A stretch of 64,000 nucleotides of DNA from Mucilaginibacter gossypiicola (lineage in GTDB: Bacteria > Bacteroidota > Bacteroidia > Sphingobacteriales > Sphingobacteriaceae), in NCBI RefSeq assembly GCF_900110105.1, contig NZ_FOCL01000004.1:466495-530494 (forward strand), in the 5' to 3' direction. Numbering within the stretch: position 1 is the first letter of the stretch; the number at the start of each line of letters is the position of its first letter. The translations under genes were made by a program, and so were the position numbers. The notes under the pieces were generated by a model. It had not been told where the DNA came from and searched no databases. It saw only the letters and a list, made by a program, of their open reading frames with translations. Of the stretch, positions 53,797 to 64,000 are shown piece after piece.

Positions 53797-55377
53797 TTAA
53801 TGTGGTGTTAGTATATAATTTTTTGCTGTTTCGTTAAAGGCTTTAACCTGTGCTTGTTCCCATGCAACATCTTTTCCTAATTCGCCGGCCATGAGGCGGG
53901 CTACTTCGGGTGCCATTGCCGTAGCCAGGCGGGCATCTAAAAATAACACCCGGGTACGTCGCGCCAGTATATCTTCAACAGTACGCGCCATCTCGTTTCT
54001 TACCGACCAGATGACCTCGCCTTTAGTATAGCTGCTTCCAGCATGAACGAGGTTTTTCCAGTCTGGGTTCTCCTTGTACAAAGCCAAAACGTTTTCAATA
54101 TCGGCACCATAAACAAACATAGGATTTGTGCGGTCGGGGTTGGGGCGATTACCGTGGATAGGTAAGAATGCAGTTTTACACGGTATATTATTTAGTCCGC
54201 CTGTTTCAATAGCCTTGTCAACTATGTCCTCGGCCATTTTGCGGTAAGTAGTCCATTTACCGCCCGTTATAGTAATTAGTCCCGACGCAGAAACGATCAG
54301 CTTATGGCTCCTGGAAATTTCCTTTGTTTTTGACGAACCATCCTGCGGGGCAGCAAGCGGCCTTAAACCTGCAAAAACGCTTAAAACATCTGCACGGGTA
54401 GGGGCTTTGGTGAGGTATTTGCCTGCTGTTCTTAATATAAATTCCACTTCTTCGCGCAGTGCTACCGGTTCAAGGCTGTGCGAGTCGATAGGGGTGTCGG
54501 TGGTACCTATCAGTAATTTCTCATGCCATGGAACGGCGAAAAGTACGCGCCCGTCTTCGGTTTTGGGGATCATCAGTGCATCTTCAGCCGGCAAAAATGA
54601 ACGGTCGAGCACAAGGTGTACGCCCTGGCTTGGCCTAACCATCGGCTTCTTCTCGGGGGTATCCATTTTAAGTACGTCGTCAACGAACACACCGGTAGCG
54701 TTGATCACTGTTTTTGCCTTTAATTGGTAATTGACTCCGGTTTCTGTATCCGTGGCTTTTACGCCTGTGATTTTATTGGTAGTATCTTTGATCAATCCGG
54801 TTACTTTAAAGTAATTGAGTAGGGTTGCGCCTTGTTCAATAGCTGTTTGTGCCAGGTTAATTGCAAGCCTGGAATCATCAAACTGCCCGTCATGATAAAC
54901 AACACCACCGTGAAGTCCTTTTTCCTGGATGCCGGGCAATCGTTTAATGGTTTCTTTTTTAGAAATGTGTTTTGCCCTACCGAAACTTAGCTTCCCAGCC
55001 AGCAGATCATAAATGCTGAGGCCGATAGTGTAAAAAACACCGTCCCACCAGGAGTAATTGGGAATAATAAAACTTTCATTTTTTACAAGATGCGGTGCGT
55101 TTTGTAATAACAGGCCCCGTTCGCGTAAAGCTTCACGCACCAGGCCGATGTCGCCCTGTGCCAGGTACCGTACTCCGCCATGTACTAATTTGGTAGCCCG
55201 GCTTGAGGTGCCTTTGGCAAAATCAGCCTGTTCCAGTAATAATGTAGAGAAGCCACGGGAAGCTGAATCGACAGCCGCGCCAAGTCCGGTAGCTCCGCCA
55301 CCTATGATGACGAGGTCCCAGATCTTTTCGGTATCGTCAAGGTGGTTGAGATTCGCTTCTCTTGTAAATGGATTCAT
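53797..55377 (-). CDS. glpD: FAD-dependent glycerol-3-phosphate dehydrogenase
   Basis: A 526-residue membrane-associated flavoenzyme that oxidises glycerol 3-phosphate to dihydroxyacetone phosphate and feeds electrons to quinone. The FAD-binding fold is clear: DLVIIGGGATGLGAAVDSASRGFSTLLLEQ and GTSSRATKLVHGGVRYL. Other family blocks are INATGVFVDDVL, RPSQGVHLVLD, VPWHEKLLIGTTDTP and SASGLITITGGKWTTYRKMAEDIVD. ATG at 55377 was chosen over a TTG seven codons upstream because a 13-bp operator-like repeat reaches exactly to this start. It is first in the glpDKF operon. Confidence 0.96.
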   Translation of the reverse strand: MNPFTREANLNHLDDTEKIWDLVIIGGGATGLGAAVDSASRGFSTLLLEQADFAKGTSSRATKLVHGGVRYLAQGDIGLVREALRERGLLLQNAPHLVKNESFIIPNYSWWDGVFYTIGLSIYDLLAGKLSFGRAKHISKKETIKRLPGIQEKGLHGGVVYHDGQFDDSRLAINLAQTAIEQGATLLNYFKVTGLIKDTTNKITGVKATDTETGVNYQLKAKTVINATGVFVDDVLKMDTPEKKPMVRPSQGVHLVLDRSFLPAEDALMIPKTEDGRVLFAVPWHEKLLIGTTDTPIDSHSLEPVALREEVEFILRTAGKYLTKAPTRADVLSVFAGLRPLAAPQDGSSKTKEISRSHKLIVSASGLITITGGKWTTYRKMAEDIVDKAIETGGLNNIPCKTAFLPIHGNRPNPDRTNPMFVYGADIENVLALYKENPDWKNLVHAGSSYTKGEVIWSVRNEMARTVEDILARRTRVLFLDARLATAMAPEVARLMAGELGKDVAWEQAQVKAFNETAKNYILTPH

Positions 55378-55420
55378 TTTATTTCGATATTTATTCAAAT
55401 ATATAAAATCGAAATAAAAT
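55376..55420 (-). promoter_or_regulatory. glpD promoter inside a 13-bp inverted repeat
   Basis: ATTTTATTTCGAT (55376-55388) and ATCGAAATAAAAT (55408-55420) are perfect complements separated by 19 nt. Within the spacer, on the minus strand, lies TATATTTG (plus 55396-55403), an exact TAnnTTTG -7 element for glpD. The left arm overlaps the ATG. The TTCGAT/ATCGAA cores resemble DeoR-type sites. A regulator bound here would block transcription, consistent with repression by the divergent GlpR-like protein. Confidence 0.6.
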
Positions 55421-55455
55421 AAAACTAAATGAAATTAAAAATAATTTTATTTGGT

Positions 55456-55463
55456 TACATTTG
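55456..55463 (+). promoter_or_regulatory. -7 element for the glpR-like gene
   Basis: TACATTTG matches TAnnTTTG and lies about 70 nt before the ATG at 55530, on the opposite strand to the glpD promoter. Confidence 0.35.
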
Positions 55464-55529
55464 ACTAATAGAAGCGATCGCATACTCTATCAAACATTAC
55501 AATCAAGTTTTCTGTTTAATTTAGCGATT

Positions 55530-56294
55530 ATGAGCAAAAACACCGACCGTCATAAGTTTATCCTGCAAAAAGTTGATACAGATGGGTTTGTGAATGTGCA
55601 GGACTTAAGTAACCAGTTAAGTGTTTCGGAGGTTACCATCCGAAAGGACCTGAAACTTTTAGAAGATAAAAACCTGCTTTTCAGAACGCATGGCGGTGCA
55701 AGCAAAACAAATCCATACGCCAATGACCGGCCGGTATCCGAAAAGGAAAAGCTGAATGGCCCCGAAAAGGAAAAAATTGCCTTCGAAGCTGCGACGAGGA
55801 TAGGAGCCAATGACTCTGTTATCATCGCCTCGGGTACTACCATGCTCGCCCTTGCCCGTGCTATGCAGCCCAATAAACACCTTACTATTGTTACTGCTGC
55901 ATTGCCGGTAGCTCTTGAACTTCTTCAGCATCCGCAGGTTGATATTGTTCAATTGGGAGGGCAAATGCGTAATACATCGTCGTCAGTAACCGGCAACTAT
56001 GCTGAACTGATGCTGGATGATATGCTATGCGGGGTTTTGTTTTTAGGTGTTGACGGTATCGACCCGGAAATTGGATTGACCACCACCAATTTATCCGAAG
56101 CCAGGCTTAATCAGAAAATGATCAATGCAGCTCAAACTACCATTGTACTGGCCGATAGTACTAAATTCGGAAAGCGTGGATTAGCGAAGATTTGTTCGTT
56201 GGATCAGATCAATGAGATCATTACCGATAGCGGCATTAGTCCGGCAATGCTAAATATGCTGGAAGAAAAAGGAGTGAAGGTGACGGTTGTTTAA
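55530..56294 (+). CDS. glpR: DeoR-family regulator, GlpR-like
   Basis: A 254-residue repressor. The N-terminal winged HTH is DGFVNVQDLSNQLSVSEVTIRKDLKLLEDKNLLFRTHGGA, followed by a sugar-phosphate-isomerase-like sensor domain (IGANDSVIIASGTTMLALARAM, VQLGGQMRNTSSSVTG, LFLGVDGIDPEIGLTTTN, VLADSTKFGKRGLAKICSL) that binds phosphorylated sugars such as glycerol 3-phosphate. It is divergent from glpD with a shared 152-nt intergenic region that contains the repeat described above. The glycerol role is inferred from position. ATG at 55530 begins just before the HTH. Confidence 0.9.
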   Translation: MSKNTDRHKFILQKVDTDGFVNVQDLSNQLSVSEVTIRKDLKLLEDKNLLFRTHGGASKTNPYANDRPVSEKEKLNGPEKEKIAFEAATRIGANDSVIIASGTTMLALARAMQPNKHLTIVTAALPVALELLQHPQVDIVQLGGQMRNTSSSVTGNYAELMLDDMLCGVLFLGVDGIDPEIGLTTTNLSEARLNQKMINAAQTTIVLADSTKFGKRGLAKICSLDQINEIITDSGISPAMLNMLEEKGVKVTVV

Positions 56295-57682: not shown

Positions 57683-60600
57683 TTATAGCTCTTTGATGTT
57701 ATCGTTAGGGTTCCTGTCAATCAGTTTGCTAAACGGATCAACTCCTACCGAAGCCGGCTGGCCTTTAACAATAACGCTGAATTGCTGTTGCCCGCGTTTA
57801 AGTTTATACTTCTTAAGGTATAAGGTATTACTTACCATACGGTTACCCGCACCTTGAACCTGCTTGCCAAATATCCCGATATCTATATAGTCATTCATGT
57901 TTACGGCCGGGATATCGTTGTTTTTGGCGTCCTTCCATGCTTTATCAATATTTATTTTGAAAGTAACCTTGTATTCATTTTTATTACCTGTTGGCTTACT
58001 GCTTGCATCAACCACCCTGTTATCATACAGCGTGATCTTTTGCCAGGTATCGGTAAGGTAATACTGCAGCGAATCGGGTACGTGCTTTTGGAGGTATTGA
58101 TAAAGGTTATTTGCTCCAGGAAAAGGGGCATTAGTTTTAAAAGCATAGGACTTTTTAAATTCGCGGAGGGCCACGTTTAGGCTGTCTTCACCAATCAGGT
58201 CGCGCAGGCCATATAAAGCTACGCTTGCCTTGCCTCCCCATAAAAACCAATTGTTTGCTTTTATTAAAGGGTGCTCGTTTTCATTGAGGTGCCGCCTGAT
58301 AAACAGGTAATACCATAATTGGTCCAACACAATGTAACGCATGTTATCCTTGCCATATTTATGCTCAGACATTACCAGCTGATCATAATTTGACAAACCT
58401 TCGGGGATCACCAAACTTCCTACCGTACTGTTTGGCGCTGTCTGGAAACGCCACCATTGCTGGGATAATAATCTTGTAGTATTGGCATAGCAATAATCAA
58501 AGCTGTTGGGATCTCTGAAATCGGCATTCCAGCCAAAATATTCGGCGTAGGTATTCAGTGTTGTCATCGAGGCATCTTGTGGGCCATAAACAGAAGTTTC
58601 CACCAGGCGGATATCATTAAACGGATAGTTGCCGTAAACTTTGCTGTAATAGGCTAAACCATCTTTATAAGCAGCAATATATCTGTCGATATTAATGTTG
58701 TGCTCAGGATGATAATAAACCTCAATGTTCACCTGGTGATCCAATTGAACACTCGCTTTTTTTACGGCCAGTTTTTCGGATATAATACCCATTGGCATGT
58801 ACATGCCCGGTTTATCCTGCACATAGTGGAAATAATTGCGGCCATCCTGCTGCCAGTTTTTTACAAGCCGACCTGGGGCAATAGCGGTTTGATCGGTGAG
58901 CGTGCCAACTGTTACATCAAGTTTCAGGAGATCGGCGGCCCTTCCTGCTTTAAGCGTGTTGATGCCTTCAGGGTTATCCTGTTGAATTTCCTCTTCCTTT
59001 TTTTCGGGCAGACCGGCCTTTTTTCGTTCATATGGGCTTCCCAGTTCGTCATCTTCGTCATAACCTAAACCTGGTAATCCGCCGTTGAAAAATGTGCCGT
59101 TGTTAATGAGGGCTGCAGCATACATCCCATTGGTAAATCCTTTGTGAACTATTTCTGAGTTGATCTCCAGCACTAGCGAATCGCCGGGCATCAATGGTTT
59201 TATAAATTTATATAAACGGAAGTCGGCAGTATCCATTTTCGGCCTGAACCAGTTGAAAAATCCGCGGGTATACAACAGCGGGGCAGTAAAGGGAACTAAT
59301 ACACCATTAGTTTTAAGCGAATAGGCAGTCAGATCATCGCCATCGAGCAGCATTTGCGATATGGCAACTTTGTTTTTATTGGTGATGGTTACCCATGCGT
59401 GTGTAGAAACCTGCTGTTTATCGGGATAAAGTTCTACCTGCATTTTTATACCGATTACTTTAGGAAGGGGAAGATGTTCATATTTCTTCAGCGATTTCTC
59501 ATATTGCACGGCCCTCGCGGTATTTTCATACTTTATGAGATAGCTGTTTAAAAAGCTCACATTGTAATAATTCCATGCGCCTACTGCCAAAAATGCTATG
59601 GCCACTATTGCGGTGATCAGGGCTGTACTACGATTGAAACGCTGAGGGAGCAGGCGTAATCGTTCTTTAAAAGATGAGGTTACCCCACGATAGTAAAACA
59701 GTGCTGAGGCAATAATGAGCAGCCCTGCAAACAACAGCCAATACAGGTTAAACCAATTGATAGGTGTTACCATGTGACCCATGCCTGTCATATCGGAGAT
59801 TCCTGAGGATGGGGTGTATGAATATAGTAGCAGATTGTAGTCAAAGGTGCCCGTTTTACGCAAAAAGAAAACGATAACCCATAAAAACACCCCTATGCCG
59901 TGTGCTGCAAATTTGTTATTGATAATAACGTGTACTACATAGCAAAATACAACCATCTCCAGCAAAGCAGGCAGCAATATGCAGGCTATGTACAGAAAGT
60001 ACACAGATAGATTCAATGTGTGATAACCTTTTAATAATTGAACAATAACCCCGGTTAGTATGGGTAGGAAGGATAAGCCGGTACCAATAAGCAATAAGGT
60101 GATTAGTTTTGATCCATTCAGGATCCAGTTTGGCGGCGGGAGCGAATCATTGATAAATGCGTAGCGGGTTGTCCTGTCGCGGTGCAGGGTTTCGCCGGTA
60201 TAAAACATCAGGATAAAGAAAATGAAGAAAGGAAAGGCTTCATTAAAAATTCCAAGTAATGTAACCGTACGCGGGAAATCAGGTACACCATTTCTGTTGT
60301 CGCCAAGCCAGAGTACAAAGCCAAGAAATAAGCTGCCACTGATCAATATGATCCAGAAGTAATTATCGCGAATGATATTAAGCAATTCAACCTTTACCAG
60401 GTTGCTCAACGTGTTCCGGTTGTATTTGCCCGTAAAGCTAACAGCCGGCTTAATAGTTATGGCGTTCTTGGTTTTAGCACCTACTTCATCAATAGCCGCT
60501 TTGTCGCGCCGGCCACTAAAAAAACGCTCGAAGTTAAACCGCAAATAAGTAAAAATTACAATAAGCATTCCTATACCTCCCCATACTATCCGGTTAAGCA

Positions 60601-61321
60601 TAAACGTGCCCGTTACCGGGAACAACGTGGTGTTTTGTTCAATAGTGCTTGAAGAGCTGGTTTGCAGCCTGATGCCGTTGAGACCAAAAGGATCGCTTAG
60701 GTTGATTACCGTTGGATTGTTGATATGGTTGAGGAAAAACAGCGCAATAAAATAAAACAGAAACAACAGGATACCACCAAAGTAAATCACCTTTACGTTG
60801 CGTGTAATAGCCACCAGGCCAAAAAACAACGAAGAAGTGAACAAAACGTTGGGTAGCCCGATAGTAAAAAACGGGTGCAGGTAGTAAATGAGGTTATTGG
60901 GGCCGTATTGTTTTACATCCGTCCATCCCACAGCTGGGCCAAGTTTGGTGCCTATAAATGCACCTATAATAACTGCCGATGCTATGAAGATCATGAAAAC
61001 GAAGGAGCCAAGGTAACGGCCCCAGAAATAACCAGCTTTTGTAATAGGGTAGGTTAAGTAATAATCTTTTGTGTTATACTCAATATCGCGATATAATGCA
61101 GTACCCATGATGGAGGAACTCACAAGTGTTATCATCATGGTGATACCCGAGCACCACAAGGCAAGTACATATGGTGCATTAATGTGCTCTTTTTCGCCCA
61201 GCGGTAATGAACCTGTTGAAAAAGTAAACACTGTAAATATGAGTGCTGCCAAAAAATATAGGTAAACGGCTGGCCTGCGGACCCGATTTTGGATCTCGAA
61301 CAGAAATATTTTAAGAAACAT
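57683..61321 (-). CDS. ABC-2 permease fused to a degenerate M1-peptidase-like domain
   Basis: A 1212-residue protein. The N-terminal half (about 1-600) holds two sets of membrane helices of ABC-2 permease type. The C-terminal half has the beta-sandwich and catalytic-domain layout of M1 aminopeptidases (VQLDHQVNIEVYYHPEHNINIDRYIAAYKDGLAYYSKVYGNYPFNDIRLVET). Where M1 enzymes carry HExxHQWW, this protein reads R950-L-L-S-Q954-QWW, and the GxMEN loop reads ASMTT, although E974 in PEGLSNY is kept. The zinc site is therefore lost and the domain is probably a non-catalytic sensor or scaffold. Gene order places it last in an operon with its ATPase 22 nt upstream. Confidence 0.88.
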   Translation of the reverse strand: MFLKIFLFEIQNRVRRPAVYLYFLAALIFTVFTFSTGSLPLGEKEHINAPYVLALWCSGITMMITLVSSSIMGTALYRDIEYNTKDYYLTYPITKAGYFWGRYLGSFVFMIFIASAVIIGAFIGTKLGPAVGWTDVKQYGPNNLIYYLHPFFTIGLPNVLFTSSLFFGLVAITRNVKVIYFGGILLFLFYFIALFFLNHINNPTVINLSDPFGLNGIRLQTSSSSTIEQNTTLFPVTGTFMLNRIVWGGIGMLIVIFTYLRFNFERFFSGRRDKAAIDEVGAKTKNAITIKPAVSFTGKYNRNTLSNLVKVELLNIIRDNYFWIILISGSLFLGFVLWLGDNRNGVPDFPRTVTLLGIFNEAFPFFIFFILMFYTGETLHRDRTTRYAFINDSLPPPNWILNGSKLITLLLIGTGLSFLPILTGVIVQLLKGYHTLNLSVYFLYIACILLPALLEMVVFCYVVHVIINNKFAAHGIGVFLWVIVFFLRKTGTFDYNLLLYSYTPSSGISDMTGMGHMVTPINWFNLYWLLFAGLLIIASALFYYRGVTSSFKERLRLLPQRFNRSTALITAIVAIAFLAVGAWNYYNVSFLNSYLIKYENTARAVQYEKSLKKYEHLPLPKVIGIKMQVELYPDKQQVSTHAWVTITNKNKVAISQMLLDGDDLTAYSLKTNGVLVPFTAPLLYTRGFFNWFRPKMDTADFRLYKFIKPLMPGDSLVLEINSEIVHKGFTNGMYAAALINNGTFFNGGLPGLGYDEDDELGSPYERKKAGLPEKKEEEIQQDNPEGINTLKAGRAADLLKLDVTVGTLTDQTAIAPGRLVKNWQQDGRNYFHYVQDKPGMYMPMGIISEKLAVKKASVQLDHQVNIEVYYHPEHNINIDRYIAAYKDGLAYYSKVYGNYPFNDIRLVETSVYGPQDASMTTLNTYAEYFGWNADFRDPNSFDYCYANTTRLLSQQWWRFQTAPNSTVGSLVIPEGLSNYDQLVMSEHKYGKDNMRYIVLDQLWYYLFIRRHLNENEHPLIKANNWFLWGGKASVALYGLRDLIGEDSLNVALREFKKSYAFKTNAPFPGANNLYQYLQKHVPDSLQYYLTDTWQKITLYDNRVVDASSKPTGNKNEYKVTFKINIDKAWKDAKNNDIPAVNMNDYIDIGIFGKQVQGAGNRMVSNTLYLKKYKLKRGQQQFSVIVKGQPASVGVDPFSKLIDRNPNDNIKEL

Positions 61322-62248: not shown

Positions 62249-62986
62249 TCATTTATTGTTGCGGATCTTTCTTGTATTTCCGTTTAGGATAAGTTTGGCA
62301 CTGTCGGCAAGTTTGTAGCTTATATTGCTGAGGCTGTCATCCTTGATCCATAAACGGCTTTTGTTCCGGATATCGAGATTGGTTTTACCGAATTGGTTGC
62401 CTGTTTCAATAGATAGGTTTGAAGCGCTGCTACCGCTTTTGCCGATAATGGCATTTAATATATTGAACTTGTTGTTTTTTAGTAAGACGGTGGAGGCATG
62501 GTCCTGGATAATATCGAGTTTATTTCCGCTGAAACCGCTGATAGTAGTAACGCGCCAGTTGAAGTCTTGTGCGGCTACCGTATCTATAATTTGAGCATCA
62601 CCCGCCTTGTATTTTGCATCAGCGTAAAAGGCATCCAATTGCGGAAGGGATATGTACAAAACGTTTGGAGGTTGTACATTATGAAAGTTATCTTTAAACA
62701 CTGCACGTATAAAGAGCGAATCGTGCCGTTGCTCAATTTTCATAAACTCCATAGCTTGAGGGGCGGCAAGCACCTTGAACGGGCCTTTTTCAAGCATAAT
62801 GTTTATTGCTGTTGACGAACCGAGGTCAATAATTTTAAAGTTTTTGAAATTCAGGCTGCTGAAGCCATTGTAAGGGTTTTTGTACTCGCCTTTCAAATAT
62901 TCTGCTTTCAGCTGAAAGTCATAGATCCCCACTGAAACTATGAGTAGTAACACCGCGGTAAGTAAAAATTTATTGCTTGTTTTCAT
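62249..62986 (-). CDS. Membrane-anchored beta-repeat protein, GIN/DUF2807-like
   Basis: A 245-residue protein with an N-terminal signal anchor (LLTAVLLLIVSVGIYDF) and a beta-solenoid-like body (KIIDLGSSTAINIMLEKGPFKVLA, NVLYISLPQLDAFYADAKYKAG, TISGFSGNKLDIIQDHASTVLL). It resembles the head-GIN (DUF2807) group seen near Bacteroidota ABC and sigma operons, but the match is my impression and the function is unknown. It overlaps the GntR gene by 17 bp (62970-62986) and lies 17 nt before the ATPase gene, so the three are translationally linked. Confidence 0.75.
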   Translation of the reverse strand: MKTSNKFLLTAVLLLIVSVGIYDFQLKAEYLKGEYKNPYNGFSSLNFKNFKIIDLGSSTAINIMLEKGPFKVLAAPQAMEFMKIEQRHDSLFIRAVFKDNFHNVQPPNVLYISLPQLDAFYADAKYKAGDAQIIDTVAAQDFNWRVTTISGFSGNKLDIIQDHASTVLLKNNKFNILNAIIGKSGSSASNLSIETGNQFGKTNLDIRNKSRLWIKDDSLSNISYKLADSAKLILNGNTRKIRNNK

Positions 62987-63389: not shown

Positions 63390-64000
63390 TTAAGCCTGTT
63401 TTTCCTTGAGTTTAAAATATGCCGCTATCCAAAACAGCAGTGATATAAGGGGGACTACAATAAAAACCCAGGCAGATTGCTGTGCATTTAAACCAACGGA
63501 GTAAAAGTTTATGCCATCCTGGAAATTCAGAAATGAAAAAGGCATTACCGGTTTGATAGGCCTGCCAACAATAAATCTTACAAATACAGTATTCACAAGG
63601 ATTAGCAGCGCATAAAAAATAAAGAAACTGAACCCTGTTTTTATGAAATGTAGTTTTTCGAACCGGATTGCTCCGTATAACGTGACGGAATGCAGGAATG
63701 AAAATAACATCATCACCAGCACAAATTTATCCTGAAACAACGACAGTATTTCACTTTGGTGCCCGGGCCAGGGTTTTAGATTCATCAGTATAAATAATAC
63801 CAGGTAAAAAACGCCTGTATAAACCAACAGAAATATAATGTACGAATAGATCCAGCTAACCATAAATTTCTCGAGTTGCGATGCAGGCAGGGTTAGTATC
63901 GGAATAGCCCTTCGTTTGTCGCCCAGGTCAGCAAAAATGGTGCTTGTAAATAATGGCCCTGCTATCAAAATAAGCACCCCGAATATGGCCATCTGAAAAC
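63390..64000 (-). CDS. ABC-2 type permease (5' partial)
   Basis: The last 200 or so residues of a membrane protein that runs past the window edge. It is rich in transmembrane helices (LILIAGPLFTSTIFADLGDKRRAIPILTLPAS, WIYSYIIFLLVYTGVFYLVLFILM, FFIFYALLILVNTVFVRFI, WVFIVVPLISLLFWIAAYFKL). The ADLGDKRRAIPILTLPAS stretch, with short hydrophobic loops around it, fits the ABC-2 permease pattern. The Met at 63992 is in frame with the edge and no stop lies between, so it is unlikely to be the true start. It is first in the visible part of the operon, 12 nt before the GntR gene. Confidence 0.75.
   Translation of the reverse strand, partial: FQMAIFGVLILIAGPLFTSTIFADLGDKRRAIPILTLPASQLEKFMVSWIYSYIIFLLVYTGVFYLVLFILMNLKPWPGHQSEILSLFQDKFVLVMMLFSFLHSVTLYGAIRFEKLHFIKTGFSFFIFYALLILVNTVFVRFIVGRPIKPVMPFSFLNFQDGINFYSVGLNAQQSAWVFIVVPLISLLFWIAAYFKLKEKQA

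Follow-up and report, generated by a model that had tools for sequence, protein, structure and literature searches.

Can a domain with the fold of an M1 metallopeptidase, joined to a transporter permease, still serve that transporter once its zinc site is gone? This question is raised by a gene in a 64,000-nucleotide stretch (hereafter the window) of the 8.2-Mb genome of Mucilaginibacter gossypiicola (NCBI RefSeq assembly GCF_900110105.1, contig NZ_FOCL01000004.1; G000:C10:466495-530494 in our genome set). The encoded protein of 1212 residues joins an ABC-2 permease half to a C-terminal M1-like domain, and its closest named matches are Mucilaginibacter proteins of 90-92% identity. A sequence-only reading of the window had noted RLLSQQWW at residues 950-957, where M1 peptidases carry HExxHQWW, and had suggested that the peptidase fold was turned into a sensor or substrate-gating domain. 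We found that, in one clade of this fusion family, the fold is kept, the catalytic residues are gone, selection has been kept and a regulatory module has been gained.

The two halves were assigned as follows. The permease half gave 15 raw hydropathy peaks, which resolved into 13 membrane segments after two neighbouring pairs were merged; given 13 segments, the loop charges place the M1-like half outside, so that the domain is probably extracytoplasmic. A profile of the permease family matched a single PDB chain, the ABC-2 permease NosY (E 0.0021), and ABC2_membrane_4 was matched by 15 of 26 family members at E<=0.01; the query alone scored 12.4 bits against Pfam ABC2_membrane, below the cut-off of 27. 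The overall architecture, an ABC-2 permease followed by a C-terminal M1 domain in about 1200 residues, is shared with fusions that carry HExxH, such as L014 (37% identity over the full length).

The M1 models of Pfam (E up to 10) and NCBIfam (E up to 1) did not match the query alone, and a phmmer search of the PDB with the query matched no M1 chain and returned two chance-level matches only; standard annotation at these thresholds thus overlooks the domain. A profile built from 27 relatives of the C-terminal half matched ERAP2 (E 4.6e-16), with its HExxH columns lying over AHELAHQW. As the sequence-only reading had proposed, the structure was modelled and compared with M1 enzymes. The AlphaFold2 model of residues 570-1212 reached a mean predicted local distance difference test score (pLDDT) of 89.0 and a predicted template-modelling score (pTM) of 0.88, and the full-length model reached 83.1 and 0.77, respectively. 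Searches of the 570-1212 model with Foldseek and with VIA each yielded M1 peptidases in 50 of the 50 matches listed. The best Foldseek match was IRAP (E 1.8e-25; TM-score 0.57 by query length), and the best VIA match was puromycin-sensitive aminopeptidase (Z 24.8 over 498 residues, root-mean-square deviation 5.5 A), while a two-domain Deinococcus enzyme aligned over 392 residues (Z 23.4, 3.2 A). In the larger M1 enzymes, the aligned part covers roughly the first two thirds of the chain; a C-terminal helical domain therefore seems to be absent from the query. The half thus has the M1 arrangement of an N-terminal beta domain and a thermolysin-like catalytic domain. Both the profile and the model rest on alignments that include HExxH relatives, and the modelled fold is therefore that of the family.

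Relatives were collected from the organism's own genome and those of 60 relatives, from GTDB contigs (53 loci) and from 395 genomes of the class. Only full-length fusion candidates were taken; the weaker matches, among those listed, were ordinary M1 peptidases, and fragments or broken hits were left out (e.g. G369, G375, G194:C8:1030 with five stops and G397 with one stop). The full-length alignment comprised 173 rows, or 167 distinct ones after removal of six duplicates. HExxH occurred in 116 rows, always on query columns 950-954, and nowhere in the remaining 57; a zinc motif shifted to another position, which would have undone the proposed loss, is thereby ruled out. In the query itself, a motif scan found RLLSQQWW, ASMTT and PEGLSNY (residues 973-979) once each and HExxH nowhere in the 1212 residues, in line with what had been noted by eye.

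The loss takes in the zinc site and the catalytic tyrosine. In all 111 distinct HExxH rows, columns 950, 951, 954, 974 and 1029 read H, E, H, E and Y, while among the 56 distinct site-less rows H950 is found in 0, E951 in 3, H954 in 1, E974 in 50 and Tyr1029 in 0. The query has R950, L951 and Q954, which leaves E974 as the only zinc ligand of an active enzyme (HExxH plus the downstream glutamate); its retention and that of the overall domain had been read correctly from the sequence, and the alignment, profile and model agree. Column 1029, which we take to be the catalytic tyrosine of the M1 Y-x-K-G motif, is glycine in the query and tyrosine in 116 of 116 HExxH rows and 0 of the 57 others, and its invariance in the former supports the assignment. 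Other positions of the region persist in the site-less rows (E927, Q955, W956 and W957 in 56/56, K1031 in 55/56), and column 950 varies among R, Q, K, A, N, T, F and V. One site-less protein, L069, keeps the second histidine (QLAHQWW) and has lost the first histidine, the glutamate, the tyrosine and E974. Among partial loci, L021, L099, L121 and L027 contain HExxH, and L023 stops short of the site. With neither zinc histidine, no general base and no catalytic tyrosine left, the domain should be unable to act as an M1 metallopeptidase.

The position of the GxMEN exopeptidase motif is less informative. ASMTT is indeed present at 917-921, as had been pointed out, but it fails as an argument for lost activity, since HExxH-bearing relatives lack GxMEN too: column 920 is glutamate in 0 of 116 HExxH rows, columns 916-919 read AQ[SA]F in 98 of them, and the only G.MEN string among the 173 rows lies in the permease half of L112. 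HExxH fusions without the motif include L014, L016 and L018 (query columns 914-926). The whole fusion family may therefore differ from ordinary aminopeptidases.

Site-less members come from Mucilaginibacter, some Chitinophagaceae and unclassified Bacteroidota metagenome-assembled genomes. In a tree of 33 site-less and 56 HExxH rows (site columns excluded, LG+G4, quick search, no bootstrap), the site-less rows formed a single clade with a Shimodaira-Hasegawa-like approximate likelihood ratio (SH-aLRT) support of 100, neighboured by HExxH proteins such as L087 and L090. The loss is common to the whole clade (56/56), and HExxH is kept by all 111 distinct rows outside it; this is not the pattern of homologues that nearly all keep the motif, which had been named as the mark of a decaying copy. 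On these alignments, the M1-type domain turned into a pseudopeptidase once, in the ancestor of the clade. Of 76 columns conserved to at least 90% in a thinned HExxH set (positions 586-599 were skipped), six drop to at most 10% among clade rows, namely A916, H950, E951, H954, Y1029 and G1032, all of which lie at or adjoin the active site. The ratio of nonsynonymous to synonymous substitution rates (dN/dS) between the query and its five closest relatives was 0.044-0.047 for the M1-like half and 0.040-0.062 for the permease. In the 40 most closely related pairs within the clade, dN/dS of the M1-like half ranged from 0.031 to 0.147; it exceeded that of the permease in 17 pairs, fell short of it in 19 and matched it in 1, and the comparison was undefined for 3. 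Since the only strongly conserved columns lost are those at or beside the active site and purifying selection persists, we regard the domain as a fixed pseudopeptidase and not as a decaying copy. A copy on its way to becoming a pseudogene would fit the partial relaxation of the catalytic region described below, yet the reading frame is intact in 56 of 56 distinct clade rows (open frames were chosen, so broken copies would escape this count), the loss is shared, dN/dS is low and the same genome holds an intact second copy. Single-clade sharing and dN/dS contradict decay, which we consider highly improbable.

Two further explanations were weighed. In the first, it would retain a reaction independent of the HExxH zinc, through another metal site or as a metal-free hydrolase. 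The retention of E974 in 50 of 56 rows and the acidic positions special to the clade (D660, D662, D755 and D757) could be read in this way, but HxxxH, HxxEH and HExxH do not recur in the clade domain (each string occurs in one row only), H1080 is the sole histidine present in at least 90% of clade rows, and E974 itself is lost in 6. This explanation is unlikely, and a relocated metal site in particular was rejected, as no histidine pair recurs. In the second, the dead domain would serve a catalytically active M1 peptidase of its host cell, by regulating it or by presenting substrate to it, which would follow a general pattern of pseudoenzymes outlined in a review (PMC11266112). One genome, G021, has both kinds of fusion (L011 and L026), and shorter M1-like matches were present in all 13 genomes searched; against this, 12 of the 13 genomes that carry the zinc-less form, among them the genome of the window, yielded no HExxH fusion, although some of these genomes are incomplete. 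An active fusion as the partner was discarded, as only 1 of the 13 genomes has one, and a helper role seems to us similarly unlikely.

The loss of the site coincides with a distinct gene neighbourhood. The gene order, read along the minus strand, is ATP1, PERM1, GntR, 245-aa protein, ATP2 and fusion; neighbouring genes overlap slightly or are separated by no more than 22 bases. Neighbours were identified with hidden Markov models built from clade proteins, in loci with at least 4 kb upstream; 16 clade loci and 38 HExxH loci fell short of this length, and 12 loci were excluded as repeats of loci counted elsewhere, mostly re-fetched with longer flanks. In 39 of 41 clade loci (38/40 distinct, given the duplicate pair L202 and L043), all four of ATP1, PERM1, GntR and ATP2 lie on the strand of the fusion, no more than 6 kb upstream of it. 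GntR, ATP1 and PERM1 were found in this range in 0 of 76 HExxH loci, of which 75 have ATP2 only and one (L189) has none of the four genes. Close HExxH sisters with flanks are ATP2-fusion pairs, with a small frame between the genes in two of those listed, L138 and L200; at L117 and L122, one ATP2 is followed by two HExxH fusion genes in tandem. The 245-aa protein was found in 31 of 41 clade loci (blastp 1e-8). Its assignment to DUF2807 (PF10988) is weak, in that the window's own protein is unmatched and 5 of 27 orthologues match at E<=0.01 (best 23.9 bits against a cut-off of 24.2), and a PDB profile search for a solved relative returned chance-level matches only. A second complete six-gene copy is present in the same genome (L084; G000:C14:425000-443000), with an intact fusion that is 57% identical. 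By eye, this copy is flanked by genes resembling those of a mobile island (a recombinase end and excisionase-like, primase-like and relaxase-like genes).

The regulator combines a GntR helix-turn-helix at residues 10-72 with about 63 residues after it, in an ABC operon, as defined for the YtrA type; its best NCBIfam matches, MocR-like PdxR and the staphylococcal GntR regulator PmtR, were below cut-off. YtrA-subfamily regulators are described as having a short C-terminal part of about 50 residues and as using long palindromes with distant GT/AC arms at ABC operons (PMC4494728). The repeat GTGTA-N12-TACAC would be a putative site of this kind. In 37 of 53 loci (including the standalone L228 and the duplicate L202), it begins 23-41 bases ahead of the inferred start of ATP1 and occurs at no other position, and it is absent from 122 HExxH loci (1,339,184 bases, repeat fetches counted). 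The discovery scan had found this dyad in 35 of the 47 upstream regions, whereas no dyad exceeded 3 regions in any of 20 shuffles; the shuffles keep base make-up but not kinship, and shared descent therefore adds to the count. In the L084 copy, both arms appear by eye to have changed together, to GTGTG-N12-CACAC.

The module also exists on its own. ATP1, PERM1, GntR and the 245-aa protein occur without a fusion in G034 (L227), G007 (L228) and G023 (L230; weak 245-aa match), and versions without GntR occur in G016 and G021; G034 has an HExxH fusion elsewhere in its genome (L017). On the ATP1 tree, in which several rows are long-branched, the state 'with fusion' requires two changes, forced by the starred branches. 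The fusion of L077 is nested among those of Mucilaginibacter, while its ATP1 groups with Chitinophagaceae, and L080, 86% identical to L077, shows the same split (ATP2 79-80%, fusion 58-60%, ATP1 41%). L077 and L080 thus look like mosaics, in which an ATP2 and a fusion of Mucilaginibacter type follow an ATP1, PERM1 and GntR of Chitinophagaceae type. From the ATP1 tree and this split, fusion and module were probably joined, or joined anew, on more than one occasion, although gene transfer could also account for the pattern.

We propose that a regulated envelope operon took over an exporter coupled to a peptidase, and that the peptidase was converted into a domain that binds or gates without catalysis. 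The fusion would work with ATP2, in an operon with a second ABC pair, a GntR regulator and mostly a DUF2807-like protein. At the outer opening of the permease, the former substrate cleft would most likely bind or sense a ligand that is either peptide-like or a precursor of the cell envelope, and this would be coupled to transport; by analogy with the ytr operon, GntR may keep expression low through GTGTA-N12-TACAC until an effector or envelope stress intervenes. Because the shape is kept, the cutting parts are lost and the gene sits in a regulated two-transporter cluster, the domain probably holds or senses a molecule, and we lean, with some reserve, towards a regulated exporter or sensor without catalysis as its present state. 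The idea that the fold had become a non-catalytic transporter domain thus gains from the clade-wide loss, the permease-range dN/dS and the confinement of lost columns to the active site, while its sensor or substrate-gate component fits the operon with its GntR regulator, second ABC transporter and DUF2807-like protein. A bolder version, which we offer only tentatively, is that catalysis was traded for regulation when the pair of ATP2 and fusion was wired behind a repressor-controlled ABC/DUF2807 module, that this wiring occurred, or was renewed, more than once, and that the dead domain may now sense ligands outside the cytoplasm for an inducible system that serves the envelope or exports peptides.

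Several observations weigh against a regulated ligand-binding exporter. Two clade loci, L061 and L063, lack the module within 6 kb upstream, and the exact operator repeat is missing in 16 of 53 loci. Site loss and module gain fall in one clade, so the link between them rests on one or a few events. The AlphaFold2 model, given the HExxH relatives in its alignment, says little on details special to the clade. Moreover, most of the 20 HExxH pairs show a catalytic region that has clearly changed less in amino-acid sequence than the N-terminal beta region, and the two regions differ less from each other in the clade, so that the old cleft appears somewhat relaxed. Such relaxation, together with the variation at column 950, would fit a merely structural domain that stabilises the permease or docks a partner, e.g. 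the DUF2807-like protein, and whose cleft is empty. This is a possible but lesser explanation in our view: 56 of 250 catalytic-region columns are still conserved to at least 90% in the thinned clade set, some of them new to the clade (e.g. W931, G975 and H1080), and E927, Q955, W956 and W957 are invariant across the clade.

The ABC-2/M1 fusion itself is already known. Transporter Classification (TC) entry 3.A.1.145.1, Myxococcus xanthus Q1D520, is described as a 1200-residue ABC-2/M1 fusion with 13 segments (PMC3924187), and the window's protein resembles it in its length of about 1200 residues, its 13 predicted segments and its order of halves; the TC 3.A.1.145 fusion likewise has no function assigned in that account. 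By description it is zinc-dependent, whereas the window's protein has lost the zinc site and the catalytic tyrosine and is encoded in a GntR operon. In gene content, the locus resembles the ytrGABCDEF operon of Bacillus subtilis, which likewise unites a small GntR repressor with two ATPases, with membrane proteins and with an extracytoplasmic component, and which has been tied to the lipid II cycle (PMC12772383, PMC8060467); the ytr extracytoplasmic part is MacB/FtsX-like (PMC8060467), unlike the M1 fold here. Toastrack (DUF2807/DUF4097/DUF2154)-GntR-ABC operons similarly combine a membrane-anchored Toastrack-type protein, an ATPase, a permease and GntR, are placed near the PSP envelope-stress network and have been proposed to act with an extracellular solute-binding partner (PMC11237479). 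The partner proposed there is a DUF2884 lipoprotein, in contrast to a second ABC pair with a pseudo-M1 domain, and the weak DUF2807 membership of the 245-aa protein limits the likeness. Among the M1 pseudopeptidase candidates reviewed in PMC11266112, yeast Tma108 has the M1 fold and is proposed to bind peptide chains via its substrate pocket, but it is eukaryotic and has no transporter fused to it. The open-licence PMC literature searched yielded no description of the zinc-less fusion or of its operon. One branch of a widespread exporter-peptidase family has dropped catalysis and kept the rest, a clean natural experiment, and comparison of HExxH and HExxH-less sisters in their differing operons can reveal the part that the peptidase domain plays in transport.

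Table 1. Features of the zinc-less fusion gene and its operon (window positions unless a locus is named)
Feature	Position	Strand	Basis or remark
Fusion gene (ABC-2 permease + M1-like pseudopeptidase domain)	57683..61321	minus	1212 aa, ATG start, no internal stop
Permease half, residues 1-585	59567..61321	minus	Hydropathy peaks, NosY profile match, ABC2_membrane_4 matches in family
M1-like domain, residues about 600-1212	57686..59524	minus	Profile, model and fold searches
Former HExxHQWW site, RLLSQQWW, residues 950-957	58451..58474	minus	Motif scan, alignment columns
ASMTT, residues 917-921, GxMEN position of M1 aminopeptidases	58559..58573	minus	Motif scan, alignment
E974, third zinc-ligand position	58400..58402	minus	Kept in query and 50/56 distinct clade rows
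Gly1029, catalytic-tyrosine column of HExxH relatives	58235..58237	minus	Alignment
ATP2, ABC ATPase, 295 aa	61344..62231	minus	Adjoins fusion in HExxH and zinc-less loci alike
245-aa membrane-anchored protein, DUF2807-like (weak)	62249..62986	minus	Anchor read from N-terminus
GntR-family regulator, 135 aa	62970..63377	minus	PF00392 E 1.4e-9; YtrA-like by short C-terminal part and operon
PERM1, second ABC-type permease, runs past window	63390..63998	minus	No Pfam match; size and place after ATP1
ATP1	L083 10648-11496, beyond position 64000	minus	
Putative operator	L083 11503-11524, about 1 kb beyond window end		Before ATP1

Elsewhere in the window, a glycerol-3-phosphate-dehydrogenase-like gene and a DeoR-like regulator, named by eye from their translations, lie adjacent and divergent at 53797-56294.

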